Notes under the pieces: generated by a model
What the model was told of the DNA's origin: nothing
The model's input: only the letters and a program-made list of their open reading frames with translations
Databases searched by the model: none
Origin: Cerioporus squamosus
Taxonomy: Eukaryota; Basidiomycota; Agaricomycetes; Polyporales; Polyporaceae
Length of the DNA: 64,000 nucleotides
Direction of reading: 5' to 3'
Assembly: GCA_022592435.1 (NCBI GenBank)
Contig: JABYQS010000014.1
Location: forward strand, 248,001-312,000
Shown: positions 8,342 through 31,736 of the stretch, one piece after another
Position numbering within the stretch: position 1 is the first letter of the stretch
Layout: every line of letters begins with the position of its first letter
Position numbers and translations under genes: made by a program

Positions 8342-10736
8342 ATGGTTGCCTTTCCCCAGCTGATCCTGTGCCTCGCCACTCTCGCAGTGAGTGTGGCCGC
8401 GACGTCACTAGGCAGCTCTCCCCGCGTTCGGCATGGGTCCGGACGACATGTCGCTCGAGGATGGTCCCTCCACCGCCGTGCAGATCCTGACACGGTCCTT
8501 CCTTTGAAGTTCACCCTCGTCCAGTCCAACCTCGACAACCTTGATGCGTATTTGCTCGACGTCGCTGACCCGCATTCGCCAAACTATGGCAACCACTGGT
8601 CGTATGCGAAGGTCGCCGAGACGTTCCGCCCCTCCAAAGAGTCCGTCGACACCGTGCACTCGTGGCTGGTCAACGACCTTCGGATCGACTCGCACAAGGT
8701 CCAGGTCAACCGCAATGGCGACACAGTCCAGCTGAATGTCACCGTCGCAGAGGCTGAGCATATCCTCGGGGCCGAGTACCACGTCTATCGCTTTGGCGAG
8801 GGAGGGGACGAGCGCATCGGTTGCCGTGGGGGCTACTCCCTTCCGGAGCACGTCTCCAAGCACGTCGATTTCGTCTCGCCGACTATTCATCTCGGTCGCC
8901 CGCCTATTACTCGGAGGGACGGGTTTGTCAGTAGCACTCCTGGTGCTGCACAAGCCCATCCTGGGCCGAGAATCAAGAAGACTGTCGAAGTAGGTTGGAG
9001 CTGCCTGTCTGAGAACGACCTGCTAGTGTCACCTCTTATTCACCCTGTCCACTAGAAATCCAAGTTGCCAGCTATGGGCTGTGATGAGGCCGTCACCCTT
9101 GATTGCTTGCGCGACCTATACAACTTCCATTACACTCCTGTCTCCGGGAAGAAGAACTCCGTCGCAGTGGGTACGTAATCCCGATTGCCTGGCGTATCCA
9201 GCCGTCAATGCTGAAGTGGTCTCACCCTCAGCGGAGTTTGAGGAAGAGATCTTCCAACAAACGGACCTCAACTCATTCTTCCAAACGTATGAGCCTTCCT
9301 TGGTTGGTTCTGAGCCCATTGTGGTCAGCATCGAGAATGGTCAGTCAGTCGTTGAACATCTTCCCGCCAACGTACTCACCTCCTTTGCAGGAACCATCGC
9401 CCCTCCGGGCGACCTCGGAGAAGCAACATTGGATATCGAGCTTGTCATGGGCCTCCTCGGTCCGAAACAAAACCTCACTGTCTATCAAGTCGGAGAGGTG
9501 GAGCAGCCAAGTACGATGGAGATTCACATCCCTTTGAGACTACCGCAGCTAATATTGTCCTCTAACAGTCGACGCGTTACTTGCTGCGTTCGATGCTTCA
9601 TACTGCGACGTCGATCCTGTGAATCAGCAAGGTGCGTAATGCCGCCGGACGGGCCCTTGGAGCTTTCTGAGATGCTCGAACGCTGCAGGTCTCACGGATT
9701 GCGGTAACAAGCCCCGTACCCACGTGGTGTCCATTTCGTATCACTTCGAACCCGACTTTATTGATGCCGGCATCACTCCCATTGTGCAGAGGGGGTGCGC
9801 TGAATTTGGCAAGGTACGTTGGTACTCCGTGCTTTCGGGAGGCCGCAATGCACGTGCTGACAAGCAATCGACCGTTGGGGCATGTAGCTCAGCTTGACCG
9901 GGATCACCTTCGTCGCGTCATCCGGCGACGGTGGTGTCGGATACTCTCAAGCCGAAGAATGCCTGGTGAACGGCGAGCTCGAGTTCTTCCCTGATGAAGG
10001 CAGCTTCGTAGGACAGTTCCCCGCTTCCTGCCCATACGTCACGGCCGTCGGTGCCACTTCAGTCGCGCCTGGGAAAAGCGTACGTCTTTTCTCTTCTTTC
10101 ACGCCTCATCACCTCATGTCGTACCCGGCTCCTTGCGATGACACCATCTTCTTCATCAGTGTACTCACATTCGTTCTCCAGGTCAAGGATCCCGAGATCG
10201 CGACGACTGCCTTCCCCTCCGGCGGCGGCTTCTCTAACAACTTCCCCCTTCCAAAATGGCAGGAAACTGTGGTCAAGAACTACATCGAGCACTTTGCGCC
10301 AGCGTACGGCCCCGACATATACAACAGATCTGGACGGGCGTATCCCGACGTCTCGGCGAACGGATTCCCTACGGTCATCATCGAAGGCGGGGAGTCCGTC
10401 TTGACGGGCGGCACCTCCGCCTCTGCGCCCATCTTCGCGTCCTTCGTCGCAGCGATCAACGACGCTCGTCTGGCACATAGGAAGAAGCCTGTTGGTTGGA
10501 TCAACCCTGCGGTAGGTGCCAGGTACCTCGTCATTACTGCTGGCGCTGACCGATCATGTTCGCTGTCGTAGCTCTACTCATCTCACCTCGCACATGCCTA
10601 CAACGACGTCACGAATGGCACTAACCCTGGCTGTGGAACTGAAGGTTTCCCGGCCGCGCCAGGCTGGGACCCCATCACAGGCCTGGGCACGCCGAACTTC
10701 CCCAAGCTGTTGAAGGCATTCTTGGACCTTCCGTGA
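8342..10736 (+). CDS. Secreted sedolisin / tripeptidyl-peptidase (S53), copy A
   Basis: Nine exons (8342-8989, 9056-9170, 9232-9339, 9391-9510, 9569-9631, 9689-9813, 9888-10079, 10182-10511, 10572-10736) join to 621 codons. A signal peptide (MVAFPQLILCLATLAVSVAA) precedes the S53 activation prodomain (about 45-200) and the catalytic domain. The catalytic residues of the family are present: Glu301 and Asp305 (GEATLDIE), Asp407 (SSGDGGVG, oxyanion) and Ser536 (GGTSASAP). The C-terminal Ca-binding region ends in [12 protein letters not shown]. These enzymes are active at acid pH and release tripeptides or act as endopeptidases outside the cell. It is paralogous to the gene at 27617 and to the relic at 7193; the S10 carboxypeptidase is convergent 41 bp downstream. 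Compared with copy B it lacks the intron after PDVSANG but has one after APGKS. Confidence 0.95.
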
Positions 10737-10777
10737 GCGAGCTACTAGTCCCGAATTCGTGCAGAGGACTGTTGTGA

Positions 10778-12915: not shown

Positions 12916-13637
12916 GGTGACGACGCTAGACGGTCTGTTTCAAAGGCTCGATGCTGTACGAAGGCCGTCAGGATCGAAGTCGCCACAATGCTGATAGCCT
13001 ATACCAACCTGCTTATATGCAACCCAAAGGCCGCGAGTGTGGTCGCGTATCGAGACGGCTCGGCTTGAAGCTGTTTGAAGCCGCACTCCATCACCGCGTT
13101 GACGGAGATCGCGAGCTTCACCGCCAAACCGTGCTACGGCAACACAATACTCGGTCCAACGTCTCCGTTCGCTCGTTAAGTCGAATGATTCACTCGATAT
13201 CATGTCAAGTCGAGCCGCGCACTCCATGCACGGTGAGCTGAGTCCGCGGGTGAGACTGAGAGCCCTGTCCTCGGCGATGACTCCAGAGCGCATGCCTTGA
13301 AGCTGCGTGCGCGCGGCAGGTCGAAGACACACTGTGCAGTGTGCATGTTGTGTCGGTAGCATTCCGAAGAGACCTGTGTACGGTACTTGCAGTGTGCGAG
13401 ACTCCGATGTGGCAGAATCTCGGGGCGGAGTAGGAGTAGGCGCCAGCGGTCGGCAACGGGCATCTTTGTGGCGGGCCGTCGCCAGGTATCTTCCTTGTTT
13501 TCTCCCACCACGACCGTATGGACTGGTTCGCAGCTATTGTAATTTGTTACTATAGTAGTCTGGCAGTGGCCAGCCTGCTGGAGCTGTGTCACCTTTGTCT
13601 TTCCGCCAAGTCCGAGCATCCTGAAGGCGAGCATCGG
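12916..13637. other. Gap upstream of the carboxypeptidase
   Basis: No gene recognised. On the minus strand a TATA-like box (GCATATAAGC, plus 13011-13020) lies about 100 bp upstream of the carboxypeptidase ATG. Frames between 13200 and 13634 show no family resemblance. The right part is the sequence into which the mobile element inserted. Confidence 0.45.
13012..13017 (-). promoter_or_regulatory. TATA-like box of the carboxypeptidase gene
   Basis: TATAAG on the minus strand, about 97 bp before the ATG at 12915. Spacing suits a fungal core promoter; no experimental support. Confidence 0.4.
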
Positions 13638-13642
13638 AGGTC
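13638..13642 (+). repeat. Target-site duplication, left (AGGTC)
   Basis: The five bases directly outside the left inverted repeat are AGGTC. The same five bases, in the same orientation, lie directly outside the right inverted repeat at 27185-27189. This is what a 5-bp staggered insertion would leave. Confidence 0.75.
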
Positions 13643-13730
13643 TACCGTTGCCGACCAGGATCAGGTTGAATGTCGAGAGTCTGGCGACAGAGGTCGGAGA
13701 TCATGGCATGTCGGAACAAGCTCGGAGGGT
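13643..13730 (+). repeat. Left terminal inverted repeat, 88 bp
   Basis: This 88-bp segment is exactly the reverse complement of 27097-27184, checked base by base. Outermost bases are TACCGTTGCCGACC. The last four bases (GGGT) are also the first four of the duplicated internal unit. Confidence 0.92.
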
Positions 13731-14628
13731 TGAGACGCCAACATGGCTCCGTAATGTTGATTATGTCATGGTAAACATACGCTGTAAAGACGCCAAACTG
13801 TGGCCTTCCGCAGGTGTGCAGCACAAGATCCCCCTCCTATGTGTACTCCTAGAAAACTATTTTCGCGCATGGGTAAGGTGTAAGAGAGCATGTAGGAAGG
13901 TTTACTGGGCACATCCCCGCGCCAGGGATTGGCACACAATTCGACCCTTGCGAAATGTGCGTCTGCCTAGGGCAAGTTGCCTTATTGGGCCAAAGTGATG
14001 TCATAACACTTCCACGCTTGCGGACGCGCAACGACTCTCCCTCATACACTCTCTTCTGGCTCCCTCACGTACACTCAGCTCATTCTGCCAGTACTGACTC
14101 TGCTTGCTGTCCTACGTATTCTCTCTTGGGTGATCCTTCTGCTGGCGACACGATAACCGTCAAGTCAATCAGCGAGTCCATGCAACTGGACCTCGGGCAC
14201 CGACATAACGTAGAAATACTCGCTGGAGGGCCATCGGGAGAGGCGAGGTGCTGCAGGCGTGTGATCATAGTGAGTCCATCGTATTTAATCCACCCTCCGG
14301 CTTGCAACCGCCATGGATCCCCACATCTGAGTCTGGGAGGTATGCTCCATTCAACATTACCGGCGCCGTAGCACCTGCATTGTCCCGTGCTTGACTGACT
14401 CCTGCTCATCTGTCTCTGTCGTACCCGTTCTTCCTGTATACTATGTATCCCTTCCTACTAGTAATACCATCGTTTATTTCACCTATCTCTAGAAGTGCCA
14501 ACTTTCACCCTGAGTAAGTCGAACTCATGTCGCTCTAGAACTTTCCATGGAGGAGTAGACTCGGACTCGTATATTGCCTCCTCTCGATCCCTTTACTTCC
14601 CATCTTACATCGGTCTACCCTACAACAC
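13731..14628. other. Left noncoding part of the element unit
   Basis: About 900 bp between the left repeat and the integrase start, repeated at 20393-21290. Several short frames, none recognisable. It probably holds the promoter and leader of the integrase gene. Confidence 0.4.
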
Positions 14629-16288
14629 ATGAGTGAGGAAAACGTCGACGAATTCGAGGAAGGAAGCAGTGGTGGAGGCTCTCGCCGTCATGTCCCCAAT
14701 CCTGAAGGCCGGAACCAGTATAAGCATTGCCGTGAGTTCGTCCATATTCATACGCGCGCACGGTTTGTTTGACTGCTCTCTTCCTGCAGCTCGTAAAGAT
14801 GACCCTGTTCTGGAGCAGGCGTTGTGAGATTATCAACGTCGCAATATCACGAACAAGGAGCAGATCCGGGAGCTTCTCTTGGCGGAGCATGGCATTGACA
14901 TCGGGTTCGTCCTCCCCACTTCGCCACTTCACATTCAAGTTCATGTACTAATGCAAGCGCTTTCACTATAGTACCGCAACCATCACTCGGCGACGCAAGC
15001 TCCTCGGTTTGAAAGGCAGCGGAGCCACAACGCAGACGCTCCCGGAAACGGAGAAGCGTCAACTCATCCTCGACCAGATGGCCAAGCACCCGAGCCGCGG
15101 TCTGGGACCGCGCCGTATGAAAGAGGCCATAGCGTTGGATAGTGGGGTGCAGCTGACGAGGTAAGTGCACGATATGCCTCCTATGTATCGCTACTCAGAC
15201 ACTGATGTTATTCTATGGCTCGGACGCACAGAGACTACATCAGCGAGGAGATGCACAAATTAGACCCTACAGGCTTCGTTCAGCGGCATCCTAAAAGCAA
15301 GAAGAAGCATCGGACGGTCCTCATTGTGCGAGGACCTGACTTCGAGTGGAGCTGCGACGGGCATGACAAGCTGAGTGCGATCGGATTCCCTATCTGGGGC
15401 GTGAGGGATGTCTGGAGTGGGAAGTGGCATGGGATTTGGGTAGTACCGAGTAACAGAGTGAAGGTTGTCATTGCATACCTATACCTGAGGCTCGTGAAAC
15501 AGCGAGGAGGTATGTTCTCTCACTCTCATTCACTCTTTGCTCACATACTCATGATATCTTGCGGGCAGGGATGCCGCTACAAACCACGACCGATCGGGGA
15601 AGCGAAACAACCGGAGTTTACGCCTTCGCAAGCGCACTGCGGTGAGTGACAGAACTTTCTCTCTGGATCACGAGGCTTGGACTGATGCTCTGTAGTGAGG
15701 AGTTCGCAGCAGACCTCCCGGTCGATGAGTTACCTGCCCATCGGTTTCTTCCCAGCATTGAGAACACGACCATCGAGCGTGGATGGTTACGCCTCCGACT
15801 CGAGTGGGGTGACGATGTCAAGATCTTCTGGGAGGCCGGCAGGGACATCTACGATGAGATGAATCCAGGCCATTAGTACGCTTCGCTTCTTTATTGAGTC
15901 ACGTCGCTGCCAGTGCGCTAACAATCTACTTAGTGAACTTGCACAATACCTCTGGCCTAAACTCATTCAGCAGGAGCTCGACGCGCTGTGTGAGAAACTG
16001 AACAACCAGCGAGACCGCAACAAGCTCAACCCGTCAGGAGTCGCTCCGAATGTTGCGTACACGCTTGCAGAGCGGTATGGGGGTGAGCGCGGCGGGCTGC
16101 AGCCCGTGGATACGAAGCTTATTGACACTCTGATGGAGGATCTAGGTGGCGAGGAGTTGGTGCGGTTTGTCTCTCGTGAATACGAGGAACGTGCGGACAC
16201 TATGTTCGCGACTCTCCAGATCGATAAACTCACATTTCACAATGTCTGGCATGTGTTTGAACTCATGTTGCCTTTGATGATGTCGTAA
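14629..16288 (+). CDS. Integrase-core (DDE) transposase-like protein, copy 1, interrupted by an in-frame TGA
   Basis: Seven exons (14629-14731, 14790-14904, 14972-15160, 15232-15509, 15569-15641, 15696-15875, 15934-16288) give 430 codons, with one stop inside: TGA at 14825-14827, codon 47. The N-terminal half resembles a helix-turn-helix region (NKEQIRELLLAEHGI, TRRRKLLGLKGSG). The core has a DDE pattern: Asp178 (CDGHDKL), Asp237 (TTTDRGSETT) and Glu280 (NTTIERGW), with 42 residues between the last two. FPIWGVRDVWSGKW and WGDDVKIFWEAG are typical of the fungal integrase core domain proteins. If translation starts after the stop (first Met in DQMAKHPSRG), the core survives but the DNA-binding part is lost. 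Compared with copy 2, it lacks three residues after KLNN (9-bp deletion). Probably the transposase or its decayed descendant. Confidence 0.8.
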
Positions 16289-16415
16289 ATAAGCTGTACT
16301 AGATGTTCTATTGTATTGAGGATGTGTTTCAACACAAGGCTAGAGAATCTACTAATCTGTACTACATGACGACATTGAGACTAAAGGCTTGTGTGCACTA
16401 GGCTACGCCGGTCGC

Positions 16416-19341
16416 TCAATCCGACGAGCCAGACTCAAACTCAATAATGTCCTTTCCATCGCTGTTCCTGGTCGTCTTGTACGACACCAATCTTGCGGTG
16501 GAGTTGCCCTTTGGAGTGTCGTTCTCAGCATAGTCATTCACAAGATTGCGCACAGCCATGCGCCCTCGACCGCTTGCTGCTTCCACCGTCTGCTTAAGGT
16601 CGGAAAGGTGAAGTTGACGACAGAAGCTGTTGCACGAGTGGACCTTCTCGAAGTTCTTTATCTCCGCTGCACCATTGTCCCAGAACCCGGTTTTCCCCCA
16701 GTCCCTGGTACCCTTGTTAGCCTCATAGTTGTCGGTACTGCACACTGACATTGGACCGGCGACTCACTTAGTGTGTGCTTGAGGATCGAAGAGTATAACA
16801 CTGTCGCCTTTGACAAATCCTGATAGAACTGTTAGTTAAGGATGATCGTATACATGCTTCAGATGCATACCTTGAAGATCGACCAGTATGCAGGTATTCT
16901 GAGAGTCGTCCAGGACATGGTGCGCAAAAGCATCGATCGCACGGCCAATGACGTCCTTGTTCTGGCCAACTTGGAGTGAGCCGGAGAACTTACGCTCCAC
17001 ATAGCCTTCCAATTTGTCGACAAGCGGAGTGGCCAAGAACGTTGTGTACAGAAGAGCACGGGTGTCGGGGGATGGTTCGTTCAGATCCATGGGAGGTGGA
17101 GGGAGGGCGTCCGGATCGATTTCACCTATGAAGGCACCTTCGGCATTGAACCGAATATCTAGCACCATTGCGAATCAGCAGCAGACTCGGAAACACCCAG
17201 CACAAGGGGATTACATACCAGGTATCGCGACGCCATAAACAGAAGCACGTCTCTTGAACGTGTCAGCAAAGTACTGCGACAAACAAAGCAGCTTAAGCTC
17301 GTCGAGGAGAGTCGTTGCGTTCTCTTGCATAGTGCTGAAGATCCCACCCAATGGAGCCATCTGCAGAATAGCATACTTCTGCGGCGGCGTTCCATAGGAT
17401 CCCTGCAGCCATATCTCATAAGCGAAACTATATGCTTGAGCATCAGATGTGACTATACGTTACCCGGATAGCAAACTTCGAATAGCCACCCCCAAGCCAG
17501 CCAGCGACTGGTTCCTTCGACGTGTTGTACCGTTGCCAGTTCTTCGCAATTTTGATCACTTCCTCCTTGTCGAGCTTCTCCATGTCCGCAGTACCTTGAG
17601 TTGGGTCGACATTGCAGACAGTCTTCCGGAACTTGAACTCGGTATACTCGATAGGCTGCTGCGACGCGAAGTTTGATGGCGGCCGGAATGTGCTGACATA
17701 GCGTGGTTGTTCCGGAGATGGTTCACGAGCTACTGAACGTCGCTTCGCAGCGCCTGGCACTGCGGCTGTAGGTGCAACAGATGATTGTGCTACACTACGA
17801 GCCGTAGACCTAGTATCTGAAGACAATATGTCAGCCAAGCGTCAGGACTCCCGAGTCCCAGCCATACAACGGACAAACACACCTGCATCGGACTGACCAC
17901 GTTTTCGCTTGACGCTCTGACTGGATGAACGCAGTGGTACCGTGCTCTGATTACGTGCACGTGTCTTCATGCGCCCGGTAGGAATGACAGAGGGAGGCCC
18001 CATGACCATCGCACTTGCGGACTCCAGCAAGTCGTCGAACTCCTATGAGAAGCCATTGCGGATTTGGTCAGCAGGTCAGTGCGACTACAGTACCGGTAGC
18101 TCATACCTGCTCCTGCATCCTCCTCGCTCTGGCCCACACACATACATTCAAGCGAAAGGATTTGTCCTTGTTGCTCGGCTTGATGTTGCCGTCCTTGTCC
18201 GGCTTGCCCGCAGCAGGTATTAAACCTTCGCGGACAAGATGCTTGTAGAAGTCACTAAGCGACCGGGTATGCCAGTACTTCTCGACTGAGAAGCCACTGG
18301 GGCTAGCTCGGGCTCCTTTTGGGACGCTGAACTGGACGTTGCCTCTGTGAATACCGAGATCCAAATCATGTTGCATTCAGCGTGACACTCTACGCTCTAT
18401 TCGGAGACATGCGTACCTTGCAAAGTCAGAGTCCTCAAGGGGAAAGTCGGAACGCATGGCCTGAGGGACATCATGAAAGAGTTCGAGGGCGATCTGAACT
18501 CCCTGGTCGAGTACAACATCCAGGCACGTTGCGGCATCAAACGTCTTCCGTTGACAGGTTTTGGTAATCTATGAGAATAGTTAGAATACCAGGACGGTGC
18601 AGGGAAAAAGCAGAAATGGTTGTAACTCACTGCTTGCGGCGCCGACGTACCGGAGGTGCAGTAGTGGGCATAGAACTCCACCGAGATCGTCTCGGCTCCT
18701 CGAAGCTCCCGCAGAGCGTTCACTTTGTTGTGATGGTCCTGAACTCTGCTGGTAGTGGCGCTACTTCGATTCTGGTTGAGGCGGTGGCTTGATGCACGTT
18801 TGTCGAACTCGTCGGCCCGATCCTTGACACGTTGGACTGCATTGCTTGCTTGTACCTTCGCCTTCTGACCAGTGTTTGGTGGCACTGCCTTCGGAGCGGG
18901 CTCACCGCCCATCTTAATCTTGCATGAACCGCAATAGTCGTCTGCGAGAAACGGCCACACGCAGCTACAATGCTTGCACTGACGCCATTTCTAGCCATAC
19001 TCGGCGCAGTCAGATACGCTGGGAAGGCCAAAGGTAGTGGGGACATACCAGTATCTGTTCTTCGTCTACTGCGGAGTTCGCAGTCCCGAGCTTGATGCAC
19101 CGCCCGCACACATCCGAGTCCATTCCCAGAAAGCACTCTCCGCATTTTGCGCACTGAGGGAGTGACTGTTTGAAACCCAGAATGCGTGAGACCCGTACAG
19201 GGAAGTTAGAGGTTGAGCAGGCATTCAGCAAGCACTTACGGCAGTATCCTCTTCCCGACCTTCAGTCCGGGTCCGACACATCCCACAAGCTTGTCCCACA
19301 AGTCGGGCGAAAATGTTGCCGCAGCCCTCGCATATAGGCAT
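16416..19341 (-). CDS. Alpha-type protein kinase with three N-terminal zinc knuckles, copy 1
   Basis: Eleven exons (19240-19341, 19049-19165, 18631-18990, 18417-18568, 18107-18344, 17883-18042, 17459-17816, 17219-17427, 16871-17158, 16768-16819, 16416-16737) join to an unbroken 785-codon frame. Each of the first three exons encodes one CxxC-x11-CGxC knuckle (residues 4-22, 39-57, 78-96). A basic helical region (QNRSSATTSRVQDHHNK) and a Ser/Arg-rich linker follow. The alpha-kinase fold is seen in GGGYSKFAIR, DIRFNAEGAFIGEID, TTFLATPLVDKLEGY, KFSGSLQVGQN, the catalytic DLQG (659-662), FDPQ (672-675), and the zinc-binding tail FEKVHSCNSFC (708-718). I could not identify the ATP-binding lysine with certainty. 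Substrate and role are unknown. Its position inside the element makes it cargo or a regulator. Confidence 0.88.
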
Positions 19342-20388
19342 GGTCGAACACGAGCAGATGATGAATTGCGAGCTAAAAGGAGGAGCACAATGGTGTCAGG
19401 AGAGCAAGACGGGCTGGAGGTGGTGCTATCCTATTCCCTGAAAGAACATGGCGACCATCCCGCCGGCCGACGACCCAATATGGTGTCGTGGCGGCTAGTA
19501 GCCTAGACTGTGGCAACGCGCCTGAAAAGGGATGGGTCCCGCCCTTGCTAGAAGTTTCCTGAAATGAGAGCGTTCAGTAGCAGCCGGCTGAAAGAACTGC
19601 CCGGCAGTAAGGTACCGGCAATGACCATACCGCTGACCGCTGTGCTGTAACAACTTCAAGTTGCATGTCTAGAGTCCCAGCCAGCAGCACATGTCTCTAA
19701 CACTTACTCTCAGTGCGGTCTCCGAGGGGCAGGAACGCATTTACTATCTCTCGAAAGCAGGAGTCCCACATTGTGCCAAGGCAGACTGAGGCGCGGCAAC
19801 AGTGAGATTGTGTTGATTGATGTCATATACGAGAGCGCGTCGACGCAGTCAGGACAGGGAAACCGATCCTATTGGACAAACTCTTACGGTACGACATGAT
19901 TGGGCAGCGGATGCACTCGGAGTTCTGGTCCGACAGCACTCATGCTGAGCAGGCCGTGCTCCAGGGCGCCGCCTGCTCAGCATAAGCGCTATCGGACCTG
20001 AGTATGCACGTGCGGCGACGAACTACTGCATGTGGCCCAAGGACACTGGGGGTTGGGCGAGGGAGATGGACGTCGAGAGAGCTTGTTGAGACAAATGTCC
20101 GATAAAAGGACAACTTACCCTGCATTTCTTCAGGCTCACGACATCTTGGAAGACAACCCCTATGTGTGTATTCTTGCTGCCATGGCCGTCCCTTCCCTCC
20201 TAGTGTCTTGACAATGCCATTTCCTCGCAGGAGTTCACAGCTAAGTACATGGGAAGTATGGAGACCTCACAATAAGTCGCCAAGGGCGGAAGGGATGACG
20301 GTCAGGAGAGACTGCTGTGTATGTAGCAGGTTCAAGGTATTACTTAGTGGATAATGGAGCACCGATAGTCGGCCGGCGAAATTGCTTA
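19342..20388. other. Noncoding part upstream of the alpha-kinase, copy 1
   Basis: About 1 kb with no recognisable gene, repeated at 26013-27059. It should contain the kinase promoter and leader (minus strand) and holds a strong hairpin at 19927-19998. Confidence 0.45.
19927..19998 (-). repeat. 27-bp hairpin, copy 1
   Basis: Arms 19927-19953 and 19972-19998 are inverted repeats beginning GGTCCGA, with an 18-nt loop. The DNA arms differ at three places, all transitions. In minus-strand RNA, the sense of the kinase gene about 590 bp downstream, each difference becomes a G-U pair, so all 27 positions pair. Function unknown. Confidence 0.7.
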
Positions 20389-21290
20389 GGGTTGAGACGC
20401 CAACATGGCTCCGTAATGTTGATTATGTCATGGTAAACATACGCTGTAAAGACGCCAAACTGTGGCCTTCCGCAGGTGTGCAGCACAAGATCCCCCTCCT
20501 ATGTGTACTCCTAGAAAACTATTTTCGCGCATGGGTAAGGTGTAAGAGAGCATGTAGGAAGGTTTACTGGGCACATCCCCGCGCCAGGGATTGGCACACA
20601 ATTCGACCCTTGCGAAATGTGCGTCTGCCTAGGGCAAGTTGCCTTATTGGGCCAAAGTGATGTCATAACACTTCCACGCTTGCGGACGCGCAACGACTCT
20701 CCCTCATACACTCTCTTCTGGCTCCCTCACGTACACTCAGCTCATTCTGCCAGTACTGACTCTGCTTGCTGTCCTACGTATTCTCTCTTGGGTGATCCTT
20801 CTGCTGGCGACACGATAACCGTCAAGTCAATCAGCGAGTCCATGCAACTGGACCTCGGGCACCGACATAACGTAGAAATACTCGCTGGAGGGCCATCGGG
20901 AGAGGCGAGGTGCTGCAGGCGTGTGATCATAGTGAGTCCATCGTATTTAATCCACCCTCCGGCTTGCAACCGCCATGGATCCCCACATCTGAGTCTGGGA
21001 GGTATGCTCCATTCAACATTACCGGCGCCGTAGCACCTGCATTGTCCCGTGCTTGACTGACTCCTGCTCATCTGTCTCTGTCGTACCCGTTCTTCCTGTA
21101 TACTATGTATCCCTTCCTACTAGTAATACCATCGTTTATTTCACCTATCTCTAGAAGTGCCAACTTTCACCCTGAGTAAGTCGAACTCATGTCGCTCTAG
21201 AACTTTCCATGGAGGAGTAGACTCGGACTCGTATATTGCCTCCTCTCGATCCCTTTACTTCCCATCTTACATCGGTCTACCCTACAACAC

Positions 21291-22959
21291 ATGAGTGAGG
21301 AAAACGTCGACGAATTCGAGGAAGGAAGCAGTGGTGGAGGCTCTCGCCGTCATGTCCCCAATCCTGAAGGCCGGAACCAGTATAAGCATTGCCGTGAGTT
21401 CGTCCATATTCATACGCGCGCACGGTTTGTTTGACTGCTCTCTTCCTGCAGCTCGTAAAGATGACCCTGTTCTGGAGCAGGCGTTGTGAGATTATCAACG
21501 TCGCAATATCACGAACAAGGAGCAGATCCGGGAGCTTCTCTTGGCGGAGCATGGCATTGACATCGGGTTCGTCCTCCCCACTTCGCCACTTCACATTCAA
21601 GTTCATGTACTAATGCAAGCGCTTTCACTATAGTACCGCAACCATCACTCGGCGACGCAAGCTCCTCGGTTTGAAAGGCAGCGGAGCCACAACGCAGACG
21701 CTCCCGGAAACGGAGAAGCGTCAACTCATCCTCGACCAGATGGCCAAGCACCCGAGCCGCGGTCTGGGACCGCGCCGTATGAAAGAGGCCATAGCGTTGG
21801 ATAGTGGGGTGCAGCTGACGAGGTAAGTGCACGATATGCCTCCTATGTATCGCTACTCAGACACTGATGTTATTCTATGGCTCGGACGCACAGAGACTAC
21901 ATCAGCGAGGAGATGCACAAATTAGACCCTACAGGCTTCGTTCAGCGGCATCCTAAAAGCAAGAAGAAGCATCGGACGGTCCTCATTGTGCGAGGACCTG
22001 ACTTCGAGTGGAGCTGCGACGGGCATGACAAGCTGAGTGCGATCGGATTCCCTATCTGGGGCGTGAGGGATGTCTGGAGTGGGAAGTGGCATGGGATTTG
22101 GGTAGTACCGAGTAACAGAGTGAAGGTTGTCATTGCATACCTATACCTGAGGCTCGTGAAACAGCGAGGAGGTATGTTCTCTCACTCTCATTCACTCTTT
22201 GCTCACATACTCATGATATCTTGCGGGCAGGGATGCCGCTACAAACCACGACCGATCGGGGAAGCGAAACAACCGGAGTTTACGCCTTCGCAAGCGCACT
22301 GCGGTGAGTGACAGAACTTTCTCTCTGGATCACGAGGCTTGGACTGATGCTCTGTAGTGAGGAGTTCGCAGCAGACCTCCCGGTCGATGAGTTACCTGCC
22401 CATCGGTTTCTTCCCAGCATTGAGAACACGACCATCGAGCGTGGATGGTTACGCCTCCGACTCGAGTGGGGTGACGATGTCAAGATCTTCTGGGAGGCCG
22501 GCAGGGACATCTACGATGAGATGAATCCAGGCCATTAGTACGCTTCGCTTCTTTATTGAGTCACGTCGCTGCCAGTGCGCTAACAATCTACTTAGTGAAC
22601 TTGCACAATACCTCTGGCCTAAACTCATTCAGCAGGAGCTCGACGCGCTGTGTGAGAAACTGAACAACCACAAGCCCAGGCGAGACCGCAACAAGCTCAA
22701 CCCGTCAGGAGTCGCTCCGAATGTTGCGTACACGCTTGCAGAGCGGTATGGGGGTGAGCGCGGCGGGCTGCAGCCCGTGGATACGAAGCTTATTGACACT
22801 CTGATGGAGGATCTAGGTGGCGAGGAGTTGGTGCGGTTTGTCTCTCGTGAATACGAGGAACGTGCGGACACTATGTTCGCGACTCTCCAGATCGATAAAC
22901 TCACATTTCACAATGTCTGGCATGTGTTTGAACTCATGTTGCCTTTGATGATGTCGTAA
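21291..22959 (+). CDS. Integrase-core (DDE) transposase-like protein, copy 2, same in-frame TGA
   Basis: Same seven-exon structure and sequence as the copy at 14629 (offset 6662, then 6671 after the indel), giving 433 codons. The TGA at codon 47 is shared (21487-21489), so it predates the duplication. The last exon has three extra residues after KLNNH (KLNNHKPRRDRNK). Fungal relatives as I recall them are longer here, so copy 2 is probably the older form and copy 1 has a deletion. Catalytic Asp178, Asp237 and Glu280 are intact. It faces the kinase gene convergently. Confidence 0.8.
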
Positions 22960-23086
22960 ATAAGCTGTACTAGATGTTCTATTGTATTGAGGATGTGTTT
23001 CAACACAAGGCTAGAGAATCTACTAATCTGTACTACATGACGACATTGAGACTAAAGGCTTGTGTGCACTAGGCTACGCCGGTCGC

Positions 23087-26012
23087 TCAATCCGACGAGC
23101 CAGACTCAAACTCAATAATGTCCTTTCCATCGCTGTTCCTGGTCGTCTTGTACGACACCAATCTTGCGGTGGAGTTGCCCTTTGGAGTGTCGTTCTCAGC
23201 ATAGTCATTCACAAGATTGCGCACAGCCATGCGCCCTCGACCGCTTGCTGCTTCCACCGTCTGCTTAAGGTCGGAAAGGTGAAGTTGACGACAGAAGCTG
23301 TTGCACGAGTGGACCTTCTCGAAGTTCTTTATCTCCGCTGCACCATTGTCCCAGAACCCGGTTTTCCCCCAGTCCCTGGTACCCTTGTTAGCCTCATAGT
23401 TGTCGGTACTGCACACTGACATTGGACCGGCGACTCACTTAGTGTGTGCTTGAGGATCGAAGAGTATAACACTGTCGCCTTTGACAAATCCTGATAGAAC
23501 TGTTAGTTAAGGATGATCGTATACATGCTTCAGATGCATACCTTGAAGATCGACCAGTATGCAGGTATTCTGAGAGTCGTCCAGGACATGGTGCGCAAAA
23601 GCATCGATCGCACGGCCAATGACGTCCTTGTTCTGGCCAACTTGGAGTGAGCCGGAGAACTTACGCTCCACATAGCCTTCCAATTTGTCGACAAGCGGAG
23701 TGGCCAAGAACGTTGTGTACAGAAGAGCACGGGTGTCGGGGGATGGTTCGTTCAGATCCATGGGAGGTGGAGGGAGGGCGTCCGGATCGATTTCACCTAT
23801 GAAGGCACCTTCGGCATTGAACCGAATATCTAGCACCATTGCGAATCAGCAGCAGACTCGGAAACACCCAGCACAAGGGGATTACATACCAGGTATCGCG
23901 ACGCCATAAACAGAAGCACGTCTCTTGAACGTGTCAGCAAAGTACTGCGACAAACAAAGCAGCTTAAGCTCGTCGAGGAGAGTCGTTGCGTTCTCTTGCA
24001 TAGTGCTGAAGATCCCACCCAATGGAGCCATCTGCAGAATAGCATACTTCTGCGGCGGCGTTCCATAGGATCCCTGCAGCCATATCTCATAAGCGAAACT
24101 ATATGCTTGAGCATCAGATGTGACTATACGTTACCCGGATAGCAAACTTCGAATAGCCACCCCCAAGCCAGCCAGCGACTGGTTCCTTCGACGTGTTGTA
24201 CCGTTGCCAGTTCTTCGCAATTTTGATCACTTCCTCCTTGTCGAGCTTCTCCATGTCCGCAGTACCTTGAGTTGGGTCGACATTGCAGACAGTCTTCCGG
24301 AACTTGAACTCGGTATACTCGATAGGCTGCTGCGACGCGAAGTTTGATGGCGGCCGGAATGTGCTGACATAGCGTGGTTGTTCCGGAGATGGTTCACGAG
24401 CTACTGAACGTCGCTTCGCAGCGCCTGGCACTGCGGCTGTAGGTGCAACAGATGATTGTGCTACACTACGAGCCGTAGACCTAGTATCTGAAGACAATAT
24501 GTCAGCCAAGCGTCAGGACTCCCGAGTCCCAGCCATACAACGGACAAACACACCTGCATCGGACTGACCACGTTTTCGCTTGACGCTCTGACTGGATGAA
24601 CGCAGTGGTACCGTGCTCTGATTACGTGCACGTGTCTTCATGCGCCCGGTAGGAATGACAGAGGGAGGCCCCATGACCATCGCACTTGCGGACTCCAGCA
24701 AGTCGTCGAACTCCTATGAGAAGCCATTGCGGATTTGGTCAGCAGGTCAGTGCGACTACAGTACCGGTAGCTCATACCTGCTCCTGCATCCTCCTCGCTC
24801 TGGCCCACACACATACATTCAAGCGAAAGGATTTGTCCTTGTTGCTCGGCTTGATGTTGCCGTCCTTGTCCGGCTTGCCCGCAGCAGGTATTAAACCTTC
24901 GCGGACAAGATGCTTGTAGAAGTCACTAAGCGACCGGGTATGCCAGTACTTCTCGACTGAGAAGCCACTGGGGCTAGCTCGGGCTCCTTTTGGGACGCTG
25001 AACTGGACGTTGCCTCTGTGAATACCGAGATCCAAATCATGTTGCATTCAGCGTGACACTCTACGCTCTATTCGGAGACATGCGTACCTTGCAAAGTCAG
25101 AGTCCTCAAGGGGAAAGTCGGAACGCATGGCCTGAGGGACATCATGAAAGAGTTCGAGGGCGATCTGAACTCCCTGGTCGAGTACAACATCCAGGCACGT
25201 TGCGGCATCAAACGTCTTCCGTTGACAGGTTTTGGTAATCTATGAGAATAGTTAGAATACCAGGACGGTGCAGGGAAAAAGCAGAAATGGTTGTAACTCA
25301 CTGCTTGCGGCGCCGACGTACCGGAGGTGCAGTAGTGGGCATAGAACTCCACCGAGATCGTCTCGGCTCCTCGAAGCTCCCGCAGAGCGTTCACTTTGTT
25401 GTGATGGTCCTGAACTCTGCTGGTAGTGGCGCTACTTCGATTCTGGTTGAGGCGGTGGCTTGATGCACGTTTGTCGAACTCGTCGGCCCGATCCTTGACA
25501 CGTTGGACTGCATTGCTTGCTTGTACCTTCGCCTTCTGACCAGTGTTTGGTGGCACTGCCTTCGGAGCGGGCTCACCGCCCATCTTAATCTTGCATGAAC
25601 CGCAATAGTCGTCTGCGAGAAACGGCCACACGCAGCTACAATGCTTGCACTGACGCCATTTCTAGCCATACTCGGCGCAGTCAGATACGCTGGGAAGGCC
25701 AAAGGTAGTGGGGACATACCAGTATCTGTTCTTCGTCTACTGCGGAGTTCGCAGTCCCGAGCTTGATGCACCGCCCGCACACATCCGAGTCCATTCCCAG
25801 AAAGCACTCTCCGCATTTTGCGCACTGAGGGAGTGACTGTTTGAAACCCAGAATGCGTGAGACCCGTACAGGGAAGTTAGAGGTTGAGCAGGCATTCAGC
25901 AAGCACTTACGGCAGTATCCTCTTCCCGACCTTCAGTCCGGGTCCGACACATCCCACAAGCTTGTCCCACAAGTCGGGCGAAAATGTTGCCGCAGCCCTC
26001 GCATATAGGCAT
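23087..26012 (-). CDS. Alpha-type protein kinase with three N-terminal zinc knuckles, copy 2
   Basis: Identical in exon layout to the gene at 16416-19341, shifted by 6671 bp; I saw no coding difference. All three CxxC-x11-CGxC knuckles, DLQG, FDPQ and the HxCNxxC tail are present and the frame is open. Two identical kinase genes in one element double its dosage if both are expressed. The differences noted at 26351 and 26355 lie upstream of its start. Confidence 0.88.
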
Positions 26013-26597
26013 GGTCGAACACGAGCAGATGATGAATTGCGAGCTAAAAGGAGGAGCACAATGGTGTCAGGAGAGCAAGACGGGCTGGAGGTGGTGCTAT
26101 CCTATTCCCTGAAAGAACATGGCGACCATCCCGCCGGCCGACGACCCAATATGGTGTCGTGGCGGCTAGTAGCCTAGACTGTGGCAACGCGCCTGAAAAG
26201 GGATGGGTCCCGCCCTTGCTAGAAGTTTCCTGAAATGAGAGCGTTCAGTAGCAGCCGGCTGAAAGAACTGCCCGGCAGTAAGGTACCGGCAATGACCATA
26301 CCGCTGACCGCTGTGCTGTAACAACTTCAAGTTGCATGTCTAGAGTCCCAACCAACAGCACATGTCTCTAACACTTACTCTCAGTGCGGTCTCCGAGGGG
26401 CAGGAACGCATTTACTATCTCTCGAAAGCAGGAGTCCCACATTGTGCCAAGGCAGACTGAGGCGCGGCAACAGTGAGATTGTGTTGATTGATGTCATATA
26501 CGAGAGCGCGTCGACGCAGTCAGGACAGGGAAACCGATCCTATTGGACAAACTCTTACGGTACGACATGATTGGGCAGCGGATGCACTCGGAGTTCT

Positions 26598-26669
26598 GGT
26601 CCGACAGCACTCATGCTGAGCAGGCCGTGCTCCAGGGCGCCGCCTGCTCAGCATAAGCGCTATCGGACC
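26598..26669 (-). repeat. 27-bp hairpin, copy 2
   Basis: Same inverted repeat and 18-nt loop as at 19927-19998, unchanged, about 590 bp upstream of the second kinase gene. Confidence 0.7.
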
Positions 26670-27096
26670 TGAGTATGCACGTGCGGCGACGAACTACTGC
26701 ATGTGGCCCAAGGACACTGGGGGTTGGGCGAGGGAGATGGACGTCGAGAGAGCTTGTTGAGACAAATGTCCGATAAAAGGACAACTTACCCTGCATTTCT
26801 TCAGGCTCACGACATCTTGGAAGACAACCCCTATGTGTGTATTCTTGCTGCCATGGCCGTCCCTTCCCTCCTAGTGTCTTGACAATGCCATTTCCTCGCA
26901 GGAGTTCACAGCTAAGTACATGGGAAGTATGGAGACCTCACAATAAGTCGCCAAGGGCGGAAGGGATGACGGTCAGGAGAGACTGCTGTGTATGTAGCAG
27001 GTTCAAGGTATTACTTAGTGGATAATGGAGCACCGATAGTCGGCCGGCGAAATTGCTTAAGCGGAGTCTCGATTTGAGCATCTGGACCCACCTCCG

Positions 27097-27184
27097 ACCC
27101 TCCGAGCTTGTTCCGACATGCCATGATCTCCGACCTCTGTCGCCAGACTCTCGACATTCAACCTGATCCTGGTCGGCAACGGTA
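27097..27184 (-). repeat. Right terminal inverted repeat, 88 bp
   Basis: Exact reverse complement of 13643-13730; ends GGCAACGGTA, directly followed by AGGTC. Confidence 0.92.
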
Positions 27185-27189
27185 AGGTC
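27185..27189 (+). repeat. Target-site duplication, right (AGGTC)
   Basis: AGGTC directly outside the right inverted repeat, matching 13638-13642. Confidence 0.75.
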
Positions 27190-27616
27190 GCAAGGCACAT
27201 CCTCTAGCGTAGAGTGCGACCCTCGTAAGTCATCCAGTTGCATCTACGTATAAGTACTCATCCTGCAAGCGCAGCAGCGCGATCACGCATCATACACAAA
27301 AGCTAAGCCATATGTGGTGCTACCGCAACAAAGAAGCTGGTATAGATGCCGTACGCGGTCCCATTTCCGGGCAGTCCTGCCCTGCCCCGCGTGCTCGGCT
27401 TCGCGAATTAGAAACCGATGTGCTCGACGCAGGCTTCGACTGGCTTCGGCTGTGTCATGTGGTGCGCGCAGATCTGGATCCTGAAGGTACTGCCATATCG
27501 CAGATACCTTGCGTCACCCGAGGGATACTTCGACCACGAATATAAAGGCGTAGACATGATGGGCCTTATCCTTCGAGGCCCTGCCGCACCCCGTCGACGT
27601 CTGGATCCACCACCCG
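27190..27616. other. Promoter region of sedolisin copy B
   Basis: About 430 bp between the element and the second sedolisin. No gene seen. A TATA box lies at 27541. The element inserted about 430 bp upstream of this gene's start and could therefore have separated it from distal control sequences. Confidence 0.45.
27541..27548 (+). promoter_or_regulatory. TATA box of sedolisin copy B
   Basis: TATAAAGG, 76 bp upstream of the ATG at 27617, a usual spacing for fungal TATA genes. Confidence 0.6.
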
Positions 27617-29864
27617 ATGGCTTTCTCCCGGCTGTTGTTCTGCCTCGCCTCGTTCATCGCGTGCGTTGTTGCTGCGCCGCGTGCCGTCCCCGCAGGATGG
27701 TCGCTCCACCGTCGCGCTGATCCCGAGGCCGTCCTTCCGCTGAAGTTCACTCTAACGCAGTCGAATCTACACAACTTGGACGCCTACCTTCTCGACGTCG
27801 CGGATCCGAAATCTCCGAACTATGGGAAGCACTGGACTCCTGCGAAGGTTGTCGACACCTTCAGGCCATCCAAGGAGACTGTCGACACCGTCCACTCCTG
27901 GCTCGTGGAAGAGGCGGGGATTGATGCCCACAAGATCCGCCTCAACCAGAACGGCGACGTTCTGCATCTTGAGCTGACTGTGGCAGAAGCGGAGAGCCTG
28001 CTTGGAGCTGAGTACTTTGTCTATCGTCATGGCGACGATGGCAAGGAACACATCGGCTGCCACCAGGGATATTCGCTCCCGGAGCATGTTTCCAAGCACA
28101 TCGATTTCGTATGGCCGACGACACACCTTGGTAGTACGTCGCTACTGCGCCGGGATGCCGAGGTTTCGAGCGTTCCTGGCTTTGGGAGAGTGTCCGGGGC
28201 ACCGAAGATCCCTATTGACGACGTAAGTAGCGACATCACTAGTCTTCGGGTACATGTCTGGACTTACATGCATCATTCTCCTTAGGTATCCGCACTTGCG
28301 ACGGAGGGTTGCGATACCGCTGCAACTATCGACTGCCTTCGCGGGTTATACAAATACGACCACATACTAGTCTCTGGCGACAAGAACTCGGTCGCAGTCG
28401 GTAAGCGGATGATCCTATTTGCCCTAATGTTTGTGTATTGACGCAGTATGCAGCGGAGTTCTCCAGCGAGGTTTACCGTCCGGCTGACCTTGACCTGTTC
28501 TTCAAGACGTATGCTCCAGATCAGGTTGGGCACATACCTGAGCTGATCAGTATTGCAGGAGGTAAGCCTCGCCGTTCTCAAAGTCTCATGACGAGAGTTA
28601 ACCCTGTCTGTAGGTGATCCCACTGCGTCTGGTGATCTTGGGGAGTCAACCTTGGACATCGAGCTCGTGATGGGTCTCCTTGGCGCAGGGCAGAACCTGT
28701 CCTTGTATCAGGTCGGTAACGCAGCAAGCAGTTCTGTATTCCGTGAGTGTTCTGTACCTCGCACTCCTCAACCGAGACTTATGCGACATGTACCTAGTCG
28801 ATCCACTGCTCGGGGCGGTCGATGGATCGTACTGTGAGGTCGAGGGTGTCAGCAACCAAGGTATGCTGCATATTTGGTGCCAGTCTGATCTCTTCCCACT
28901 CACATCAGCGTCCAGGGCTCGCGGATTGCGGCAACAAGCCTACCGTCAACGTTGTCTCCATCTCGTACCACTTCAACCCGGACGTCATTGATCCCACGAT
29001 CTCTCCTATCGTACAACGTGAATGTACGGAGATCGGCAAGCTGAGTCTAACCGGGATGACCTTTATCGCGTCCTCTGGCGACGGGGGTGTGGGATACTCC
29101 CAAAGCGGAATCTGTCAGCTCGCCAACGGGACCCTCCAGGCAGGCAACCCCAAGGGAGCCTTCCTCGGTCAGCTTCCTGCGTCCTGCCCGTACGTTACGG
29201 CTGTCGGCGCGACGTCCGTTGCGCCCAACAACACCGTCGACGACCCGGAAATCGCAACAACGCGGTTCCCGTCGGGGGGAGGCTTCTCGAACAACTTCCC
29301 GCGCCCATCGTGGCAGGATGATGCCGTCACGAACTACTTGCAGAACTTCGGGCCCAACTACGCCGATAACATCTTCAACAGGAGCGGCCGGGCGTACCCT
29401 GACGTTGCGGCTAACGGGTGAGTGTTTGGACGACGGATACTCGAGGCCCTTGCGATGACTGTATCTAACGCATGGTGTTCCACAGGTGGCCTCTTGTGAT
29501 CGCCGAATCAGGCCAGTTCGTCAAGAGCGGAGGCACCTCCGCGTCTGCACCCATCTTCGCCGCCATCATCACTGCAGTTAATGATGCGCGCATCGCCGCG
29601 GGCAAGAGTCCTGTTGGTTGGATCAACCCTGCGGTACGTCGGTTTCGTCGCGATGGCCGATTGATTGTGGCTTAGATGGCTGACGCTCGTATGCGACAGC
29701 TGTACTCATCTGCGTTCGCAAACGCGTACAATGACGTGACGAACGGCACGAATCCGGGATGTAGCACTCAGGGCTTCAACGCTGCCCCGGGCTGGGATCC
29801 CGTCACTGGTCTCGGCACTCCCAACTTCCCAGAGCTGTTGTCGGCGTTCTTGGCTCTTCCTTGA
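27617..29864 (+). CDS. Secreted sedolisin / tripeptidyl-peptidase (S53), copy B
   Basis: Eight exons (27617-28222, 28286-28400, 28454-28561, 28614-28742, 28798-28860, 28916-29417, 29486-29633, 29700-29864) join to 611 codons. Signal peptide [20 protein letters not shown], then the prodomain ([20 protein letters not shown]) shared almost word for word with copy A. Catalytic residues: Glu287 and Asp291 (GESTLDIE), the Asp of SSGDGGVG, and Ser526 (GGTSASAP). The end reads [12 protein letters not shown]. It differs from copy A by fused middle exons and an extra intron after PDVAANG. Its position beyond the mobile element suggests that the sedolisin pair and the carboxypeptidase were once closer together. 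Confidence 0.95.
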
Positions 29865-30458
29865 GGGTGCGTCGGAATTTCGACGCATGTAACGGAAATC
29901 ACGATTACACTCTTGATATGCCAATAGTATGACTGTATGAGATGTGCTCCTCTTGTCAACAACCAGATGGACGGAAACGCTTCGCCACCTCATCCTCGGA
30001 GCGGTCGCCGCTGGCAACGCGTGACATCACCGTTGCCGTTGAGTGGTCGTAGATGGCGGCACAGAGGACATTTGACTCATTATCTGCATGAGTTCTTGCC
30101 TGTTCTTGCCTCGTTACACGCGCTCCTCAGTGTGCGATGTTGGATAACGCCTCCGAGTCGCCCTCGGCTCGCATCGCCGACTGTATTGATATCGTTTCAT
30201 CTTACAGGCAAATACGCTAAAGACCAGTTCGGACCCGGATGAACCGGTCAGATTGTACTATGTCCGCTCTGATCCTCGCTACAGGAGAACAATGGAAGCT
30301 CATTGTATGACAATACTGTGATGATTAGCGCTGAGACCATGTCGTCCTAACCACCGATCTGCAGAATATAAAGCTCGGTACCAATTTCTACCTCCTTCCT
30401 CCTTGACTCTACGCCCTCGCCCCCAGCCTTACATTTTCTGTCCTTCAGGTTGCCTGTC
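29865..30458. other. Intergenic, promoter of F-box-like paralogue 1
   Basis: No gene. From about 30230 the sequence resembles 32525-32690, upstream of paralogue 2 (TCCGCTCTGATCCTCGCTAC, GAGAACAATGG, then the TATA box), so the promoter was duplicated with the gene. Confidence 0.5.
30367..30382 (+). promoter_or_regulatory. Shared core promoter TATAAAGCTCGGTACC, paralogue 1
   Basis: TATA box with a conserved downstream extension, 92 bp before the ATG at 30459. The same block precedes the two other paralogues at 96 and 80 bp. Confidence 0.65.
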
Positions 30459-31736
30459 ATGGGTCAAGACTGGCAGTTGTACGTCATTCAACGCCTTTGG
30501 ACTATTGTTGGCATCACCTCTGATACCGGGATCTTCACAGTTTCAACGTTACTCGGCGACAGGAGATGGAGACTCACGGTGGTCCGAATTGCGCATTTCT
30601 CCACCGTAAGCAAGGATTTCTTGTGCGCAGTATCACAGTGCCGTTCCGCAGGTGGGTTCACTTCTTTCCTTCTGCCCACCCGACGCGTCCACCCACTGAT
30701 CCCCAACCACCGCAGTCCGAAGGTCGACACACACTGGGAGCGTCTCTCGCGCACTCCCCCGGCTATCAATAACAAAGGCCTACTCTCCCTACCGGACGAG
30801 CTTCTGCTCGACATCCTCGACTTGGAAGAGATCCAGTGGGACGAACTGGTGATCCTTGCTGTGACCTGTCGCCGGCTCTTTATCCTCTCACTCAAGATGC
30901 TCAACTCGGGCCGCACACAAGTATCGGCTCCTTGGGCCGACTGCCGCATCGTCTGCGCCGGCGAGTACGCCAAACTCAAGGACCTTCCTGCCGCTCTACT
31001 CAAGGCCGGCGAACGCGCATTTATAGAGGCGAAGATCAAGGAGGACGAGGACCTCGACGACGACGACGAGGCAAGCTACGGTGGGCTCTCGCGCCTTGGA
31101 TGTGAGGAAGGCCATCCGTTCCGTGGCGCGTTCACCTACCGGCCCGAGTTCTTGCAGAAGTTCAAGTCAGAAGCCGACCGAGAGATGTTCAAGATCGTCG
31201 CGAGTGTCACGTTTCCCCCGGGGCGCACGGACTGGGTTCTCTGCAACACGAACAAGAAGGAATATGTTCGAGCATCCGCACTGGCAGAGCTTGCCCGCAA
31301 GCCGAAAGATGCACAGCCGTTTCTTCCACACTGCAGGCTGGACCTTGGTCACGCACTCCTTACTCGCATCTGCTGGTCCATCGAGGCGCTCCCGAACACC
31401 CCGCCCAAGATGAACATGCACCGCGGACCATGGGTCGGCGATCGGTTCTGCATCATCACCATGGACCGCTTAGGTGGGCCGCAGCCGGGCGAGGAATCCC
31501 GGTGGGAGTGGACGGATGTCAGCAAGGCGGTCGTGAGGGACCTTGTGCAGGTTTGCCGAGTGATGTTTGGGAAGAAGTGGCTCAAGCAGATTGAGGGCGA
31601 CGTGCTCGAGGTGGACCACAAGGAGTATTTCTGGTTTGGATCTGATGGGGAAGACAAGGTCGCTGAAGCTGGGCGAGCCATCTATAGTCCATGGACGGTG
31701 CAGCTTGGCTCCGCGTGGAATTATGTATGGGCGTGA
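30459..31736 (+). CDS. F-box-like agaricomycete family protein, paralogue 1
   Basis: Exons 30459-30478 (20 nt), 30541-30651 and 30716-31736 join to 383 codons. The protein starts MGQDWQFFNV, a variant of the MGQYW start I associate with this agaricomycete family. It continues through HGGPNCAFLHRKQGFLVRSI to an F-box-like segment (about residues 65-110: GLLSLPDELLLDILDL, LAVTCRRLF). The C-terminal 250 residues share conserved blocks with the neighbours (FPPGRTDWVLCN, KKEYVRASALAEL, CRLDLGHALLTRICW, YFWFGSDG). F-box proteins usually recruit substrates to SCF ubiquitin ligases; nothing here shows a substrate. Reading straight through the first intron would give a longer but false N-terminus. First of three tandem copies. 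Confidence 0.8.
   Translation: MGQDWQLYVIQRLWTIVGITSDTGIFTVSTLLGDRRWRLTVVRIAHFSTVSKDFLCAVSQCRSAGGFTSFLLPTRRVHPLIPNHRSPKVDTHWERLSRTPPAINNKGLLSLPDELLLDILDLEEIQWDELVILAVTCRRLFILSLKMLNSGRTQVSAPWADCRIVCAGEYAKLKDLPAALLKAGERAFIEAKIKEDEDLDDDDEASYGGLSRLGCEEGHPFRGAFTYRPEFLQKFKSEADREMFKIVASVTFPPGRTDWVLCNTNKKEYVRASALAELARKPKDAQPFLPHCRLDLGHALLTRICWSIEALPNTPPKMNMHRGPWVGDRFCIITMDRLGGPQPGEESRWEWTDVSKAVVRDLVQVCRVMFGKKWLKQIEGDVLEVDHKEYFWFGSDGEDKVAEAGRAIYSPWTVQLGSAWNYVWA

Follow-up and report, generated by a model that had tools for sequence, protein, structure and literature searches.

A 13.5-kb stretch of DNA bounded by inverted repeats in the polypore Cerioporus squamosus is very probably a recently inserted DNA transposon of the IS3EU type, in whose lineage an alpha-kinase is a standing second gene beside the transposase and no chance passenger. 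The element lies in a window of 64,000 nucleotides (assembly GCA_022592435.1, contig JABYQS010000014.1, positions 248,001-312,000), and coordinates are window positions unless another contig is named. Its terminal inverted repeats (TIRs) are identical at 88/88 bp, and AGGTC stands on both flanks, which match exactly at a length of 5 bp only (not at 3, 4 or 6-11 bp). The perfect 88-bp pair, the near-identical ends at four other loci and the empty allele at this site place the element far above chance. Its boundaries are as follows.

13638..13642, no strand: left target-site duplication, AGGTC; one AGGTC in the empty allele on contig C295
13643..13730, plus strand: left TIR, 88 bp, starting TACCGTTGCCG; its outer 34 bp recur in short elements
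27097..27184, minus strand: right TIR, 88 bp, final bases CGGCAACGGTA
27185..27189, no strand: right target-site duplication, AGGTC, from flank comparison and the empty allele

The insertion can be seen against an uninterrupted counterpart in the same assembly. A query in which both flanks were fused through one AGGTC matched contig C295 unbroken (query 215-500). The first 36 bases of this 27,184-bp contig, which are all that it carries of the left flank, equal window 13607-13642; they close with one AGGTC, after which the right flank follows, and collinearity extends over window 27185-54139 (97-99% identity). C295 is the empty site on the other haplotype, which is indistinguishable in sequence from a perfect excision. 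As filled and empty alleles are both present, the insertion is polymorphic between two haplotypes, and the single AGGTC of the empty allele shows the 5-bp duplication directly. An earlier note on this DNA had described perfect 88-bp inverted repeats, a 5-bp direct repeat AGGTC and a single young mobile unit, and had set out an empty-site check in advance. Its reading of the repeats and of a duplication of precisely 5 bp was confirmed, and C295 answers the check and supports a young mobile unit. Over its first 7.4 kb, which include tandem genes, the C295 haplotig is 97% identical to the window, and beyond that 99%, so that both nuclei are partly represented in the assembly.

Four further complete repeat loci were found, each an element of 692-697 bp with nothing but its ends in common with the large element, along with one truncated repeat copy on C279. 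The short elements match the main TIR at 34/34 bp at one end (33/34 in one copy) and 38/42 at the other, and all four, like the main element, have TA..TA termini (TACCG...CGGTA). Their target-site duplications are CGGCT, ACGTG, CCCGTC and ATCGT, and uninterrupted counterparts with the duplicated bases present once were found for 4/4 of them.

Element on C817: counterparts on C580 and C40; in a dispersed repeat, perhaps not allelic
Element on C582: counterparts on C2 and C168; in a dispersed repeat, perhaps not allelic, with a 4-5-bp gap in a nearby G run
Element on C303: counterpart on C290
Element on C255: counterpart on C988

With the main element included, duplications are 5 bp at 4/5 sites and 6 bp at 1/5, each checked against an empty site. 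The TIR is 88 bp in the main element and 34-42 bp with mismatches in the short ones (the criterion used for rust IS3EU being >30 bp). Such ends do exist apart from the genes, an outcome that the earlier note had named as telling against its proposal, but they do so as short non-autonomous elements, and the outcome of this check is mixed. Elsewhere in this genome, the repeat end was matched over 20 bases with 3 mismatches at twenty sites (control 3), some of them in identical pairs, possibly the ends of related families.

Self-comparison shows that the interior of the element consists of two head-to-tail copies of one 6.66-kb unit, 99.8% identical, so that the element holds two transposase and two kinase genes, one of each per unit. 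Between the two units, U1 and U2, there are two substitutions (at 19680/26351 and at 19684/26355) and one indel of 9 bp, which U2 has at 22671-22679 and which is missing from U1 after 16008. At their junction the right end is short of its final 125 bp and the left end of its initial 83 bp.

13726..20387, no strand: tandem unit U1, 6662 bp (self-comparison)
20387..20388, no strand: U1/U2 junction, with a 1-bp (A) overlap
20388..27058, no strand: tandem unit U2, 6671 bp (self-comparison)
14629..16288, plus strand: U1 transposase gene, 9 bp shorter than in U2; 7 exons (14629-14731, 14790-14904, 14972-15160, 15232-15509, 15569-15641, 15696-15875, 15934-16288), splice sites set by hand
14825..14827, plus strand: in-frame TGA, codon 47 of the U1 transposase
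16416..19341, minus strand: U1 alpha-kinase gene, 11 exons, 764 amino acids, open, with a Cys-rich N-terminus; splice sites set by hand
21291..22959, plus strand: U2 transposase gene, the same 7 exons and the same in-frame TGA (21487-21489), holding the 9 bp at 22671-22679
23087..26012, minus strand: U2 alpha-kinase gene, protein identical to that of U1

Because the interior is tandemly duplicated, the element in its natural form has about 6.9 kb, a single transposase and a single kinase. The 13.5-kb span of the earlier note is therefore real, but what it encloses is an internally duplicated 6.9-kb element, a duplication that had been overlooked. The long copy arose when nearly all the sequence between the repeats of a 6.9-kb element was duplicated: a break made by the transposase would have been followed by repair synthesis from both flanks almost to the element's far end, after which the ends were joined. 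Two-sided repair of this kind would leave both outer ends complete, two interiors between them and the original target-site duplication around the whole.

Two other origins of the duplication have to be weighed against this. Relatives of IS3 form circles and dimers, and the sequence lost at the junction amounts to two abutting ends (125 + 83 bp), breakpoints with a chance of about 5e-4 if both fell uniformly in a 6870-bp element. The structure might then descend from a head-to-tail dimer of the IS3 kind, in which the inverted repeats met back to back in a palindrome of about 176 bp that was later deleted, with no gap repair at the site. We consider this possible but unlikely, in that gap repair from both sides gives the same structure and retains the original site and duplication; moreover, the related element Styx retains its parental copies and, in the passages available, its authors tie its tandem duplications to double-strand breaks (PMC10853768). 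An assembly artefact is improbable. Haplotypes are mixed in this assembly and the sequence was judged from the assembly without reads, yet the other haplotype is empty at this site, which means that U1 and U2 are not a pair of alleles here, and a join of two haplotype copies by the assembler was rejected for that reason. The 9-bp indel and two base differences mean that at least two versions of the unit exist, and no other locus holding a version was found in the assembly. Repair from both flanks is accordingly the origin we favour.

The transposase and kinase genes are convergent, on the plus and minus strands respectively, with 127 bp between them. The earlier note's description of a DDE integrase-core protein convergent with an alpha-kinase holds, with a rva_4 match for the former and PF02816 for the latter. 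The best protein match of the transposase is a public protein of Cerioporus squamosus itself (from a 454,473-bp contig), 94% over the whole query. Fifty of the 120 relatives listed from the protein search were aligned by the analyst's choice, the host's own included. D, D and E are conserved in the family, HTH_21 was matched in 6/50 members, and the best Pfam model is rva_4 (24.2 bits for the window protein), not rve. A bacterial IS3 model reached E 3.8e-4 for one member (P0002), far below the model cut-off. The predicted structure of the Polyporus arcularius relative has a helical N-terminus and an RNase H core. When a sequence profile of the family was run against solved structures, no convincing match came up (best E 0.34), and a PHROGs scan of 5 members gave weak matches only.

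The position of the in-frame TGA is occupied by a residue in 49/49 aligned non-host proteins, with a gap in the public host model, and in the modelled N-terminus of the Polyporus arcularius relative it falls within the first helix (40-51). As both transposase genes carry this stop, this copy is probably no longer autonomous, unless splicing skips it. The public host model (P0001) predicts a splice that removes about 27 codons around the stop (14820-14971), its GT overlapping the TGA. An intact DDE transposase, with the helix-turn-helix N-terminus and RNase H core predicted from sequence and model, would bind the outer 34-42 bp or so of the TIRs and would move the intervening DNA by target cuts staggered by 5, sometimes 6, bp. 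The element would most likely be a cut-and-paste (or cut-and-copy) TIR transposon.

The kinase domain matches PF02816 at 56 bits (cut-off 21.3), and the protein matches a public Cerioporus squamosus protein at 100% over 87% of the query. Its reading frame is open in both units while the transposase is interrupted. Five key kinase residues are each retained in 18/19 aligned kinases (19 of 21 matches, P0134 and P0141 omitted). Since the kinase is linked to the transposase in several genera and its key residues are retained, we argue that it has a function. It would aid the element by phosphorylating the transposase or a host factor, and may regulate the transposase or host silencing.

This linkage was followed in other fungi from species, apparent contig and locus tags. 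The transposase search gave 130 matches, the best 120 of which are listed; apart from a few rows without a name, all sources are, as far as the genera are known, Agaricomycetes. A full-length kinase query found only the host protein, so the kinase domain was searched instead, a shallow search with 21 matches, one of them the host protein. Ten of the 20 non-self kinases share species and apparent contig with a transposase among those listed, and in six of these pairs the locus tags are consecutive:

Trametes versicolor: VTO73DRAFT_11837/11838
Ganoderma adspersum: V8D89_002296/002297
Termitomyces: C0992_005461/005462
Hypsizygus marmoreus: Hypma_007391/007390
Tricholomella constricta: D9615_002423/002422
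Lyophyllum shimeji: 0409960/0409970, counted among the consecutive ones, the tags apparently rising in tens

The pairs of Cubamyces lactineus, Trametes coccinea, Pilatotrama ljubarskyi and Collybia nuda have non-consecutive tags. Over 11 pairs, host included, pairwise identities among the transposases correlate with those among the kinases (Mantel r 0.55, p 0.0003), much of which is the split between orders. Three groups appear in both trees (Trametes coccinea with Pilatotrama; Cubamyces with T. versicolor; Termitomyces with Hypsizygus and Lyophyllum), and the placement of Collybia, Tricholomella, Ganoderma and Cerioporus differs between the proteins. Two alpha-kinases of Tricholomella constricta (P0133 and P0134) are annotated with a multicopper-oxidase domain, and are probably fused models or insertions beside a laccase gene.

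Within the Cerioporus squamosus assembly there is no other close copy of the transposase and kinase. Alpha-kinase matches number at least 3 (the two window copies and C201; E up to 0.1), a lower bound as the search went exon by exon. On C201 an alpha-kinase match (258564-258761, plus strand) converges with a transposase C-terminus (260077-260424, minus strand, 31% identity), and this pair is a divergent, decayed relic. Together with the linkage in other fungi it supports the earlier claim that transposase and alpha-kinase form one unit. C201 was dropped as a second intact element, for the pair is decayed and the three repeats of about 420 bp there have TG..CA ends, like long terminal repeats (LTRs). 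In C201:252500-270000 such LTR-like repeats are inserted around the pair, and a nearby open reading frame (ORF) resembles by eye a copia-type gag.

Several results weigh against the assignment to IS3EU with a standing kinase. Duplications are 5 bp at 4/5 sites, whereas those of IS3EU are reported as usually 6, and the ends are TACCG here and TAYGG in the available passages on the rust families (PMC12730594). Family membership is set by description, an IS3EU transposase being a DDE enzyme that is related to IS3/IS481 and has no HHCC domain, and the window transposase at 24.2 bits falls slightly below the curated rva_4 cut-off of 26. Bacterial models were matched by similar numbers of the 50 aligned members (IS630 8, IS3 8, ISNCY 7, IS481 4; E up to 0.1). 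Half of the non-self kinases (10/20) have no partner among the transposases listed, as is true of 109/120 listed transposases against the 21 matches of the shallow kinase search. The correlation of identities is non-significant within six polypores (r 0.38, p 0.07) and within five Agaricales (r 0.34, p 0.17). Both transposase copies are broken and no intact one was found in the assembly, so that any current activity would be conjectural. Finally, at ten other rva_4 loci in the genome, inverted repeats with TA..TA ends were not found around the gene (BLAST at E up to 10 over stretches of 5.3-10 kb; a repeat pair would go unseen on C204 and C89, where the gene sits at the contig end), nor was a kinase (tblastn with 21 kinases, E up to 0.01), and these loci were not counted as further elements. 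Beside one rva_4 gene, C460:13415-14372 (958 bp) has TA..TA inverted ends (23 bp, 83%) and flanks without a matching duplication.

A new superfamily apart from IS3EU, defined by 5-bp duplications, a rva_4-type transposase and an alpha-kinase, could be drawn from the prevalence of 5-bp duplications, the TACCG ends, the preference for rva_4 over rve and the lack of a clear lead for IS3 among bacterial models. We regard it as very unlikely, as one sister site has a 6-bp duplication and the TA..TA ends, TIRs >30 bp, apparently IS3-like helix-turn-helix and core and convergent alpha-kinase agree with published IS3EU. The kinase might also be passive cargo, a host gene captured once that has no role in transposition: its function is read from sequence, half of its non-self relatives stand without a listed transposase, and in the available passages Styx has four ORFs (transposase, GATA, CCHC, DUF3577) with no alpha-kinase named. 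Against this, the pairing recurs in Polyporales and Agaricales here and has been published in rusts and truffle, each key residue is kept in 18/19 kinases, the search of this genome gave no alpha-kinase match besides the two window copies and the C201 relic, and the kinase is open although the transposase is broken. Passive cargo therefore seems to us rather unlikely. Tentatively, the alpha-kinase may be part of the fungal IS3EU transposition machinery, and the element may have spread the scattered and expanded fungal alpha-kinases, including the rust sets, a proposal well short of the confidence we place in an IS3EU-type element with a standing kinase gene.

Among the neighbouring genes, two paralogues with pro-kumamolisin activation domains (S53-type peptidases) stand one on each side of the element (8261-10737 and 27560-29865). 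Three related genes lie in tandem at 30229-36186, with repeats of 67-79% DNA identity, and two of them have weak F-box-like matches under the curated cut-off.

An LTR or retroviral origin was rejected, as the ends are inverted and TA..TA, not direct TG..CA repeats. A Pfam scan of both genes and the six other ORFs of the unit found no reverse transcriptase. The earlier note had seen no fit to known superfamilies. Nevertheless, IS3EU as described in two sources (PMC10045372; PMC12730594) is matched by the TA..TA ends, the duplications of 5-6 bp, the apparently IS3-like DDE transposase and the alpha-kinase convergent with it, an assignment that is made through termini and gene pair, with IS3EU transposases compared by description. 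In the passages available, TA..TA termini are found in every complete IS3EU family, and duplications are usually of 6 bp (PMC10045372); IS3EU/GingerRoot shares TA..TA termini and 5-6 bp duplications with the present element, and differs in the usual length.

The closest published systems are the TET+ IS3EU of rusts and Tuber indicum (Kojima 2025), where, in the passages available, transposase and alpha-kinase are opposed with TET/JBP between them (PMC12730594). The rust families have 6-bp duplications and TAYGG..CCRTA ends. Common to these and the present element are the TA..TA ends, TIRs >30 bp, a DDE transposase and an opposed alpha-kinase; here there is no TET/JBP gene, with 127 bp between the two genes and no Pfam match in the six other ORFs of the unit. 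The claim of an undescribed system consequently falls, the pairing having been published in 2025. Styx of Zymoseptoria has TIRs (36 bp), an IS3EU-related transposase, mobile degenerate copies and tandem duplication in common with the element, and differs in its 6-bp duplications and its GATA, CCHC and DUF3577 companions, an alpha-kinase being unmentioned in the available passages (PMC10853768). In its pedigree, new insertions arose with parental copies retained and one tandem duplication, for which the authors invoke double-strand breaks (PMC10853768).

More distant are IstA (PDB 8q4d, 8b4h) and TnsB (8aa5, 7svw), with 13-15% identity to the transposase; both belong to bacterial, ATPase-assisted systems. 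The kinase domain resembles MHCK A, TRPM7-type, eEF2K and ALPK1 kinases in sequence (11 matches, E 5.6e-6 to 0.017), and the element kinase is set apart by its N-terminal Cys-rich motifs and its linkage to a transposase. A literature search (Repbase and supplements outside its scope) found no agaricomycete IS3EU with an alpha-kinase; a Ganoderma paper reports IS3EU sequences, in a passage silent on gene content.

In rusts the alpha-kinase family has been termed highly expanded, in the text to a table that gives PF02816 counts of 79 and 39 in two of its columns (PMC4469406). Carriage by transposons would explain this expansion, now listed as host gene families; should the kinase take part in transposition, the element would be unusual as a transposon with a protein kinase of its own. 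The present data connect the alpha-kinases found in polypores and mushrooms with a named superfamily of transposons, and the insertion is visible as filled and empty alleles in one assembly. The pairing of transposase and alpha-kinase was already known from related elements; what is added here is a TET-less agaricomycete family with mostly 5-bp duplications, and the head-to-tail dimer.

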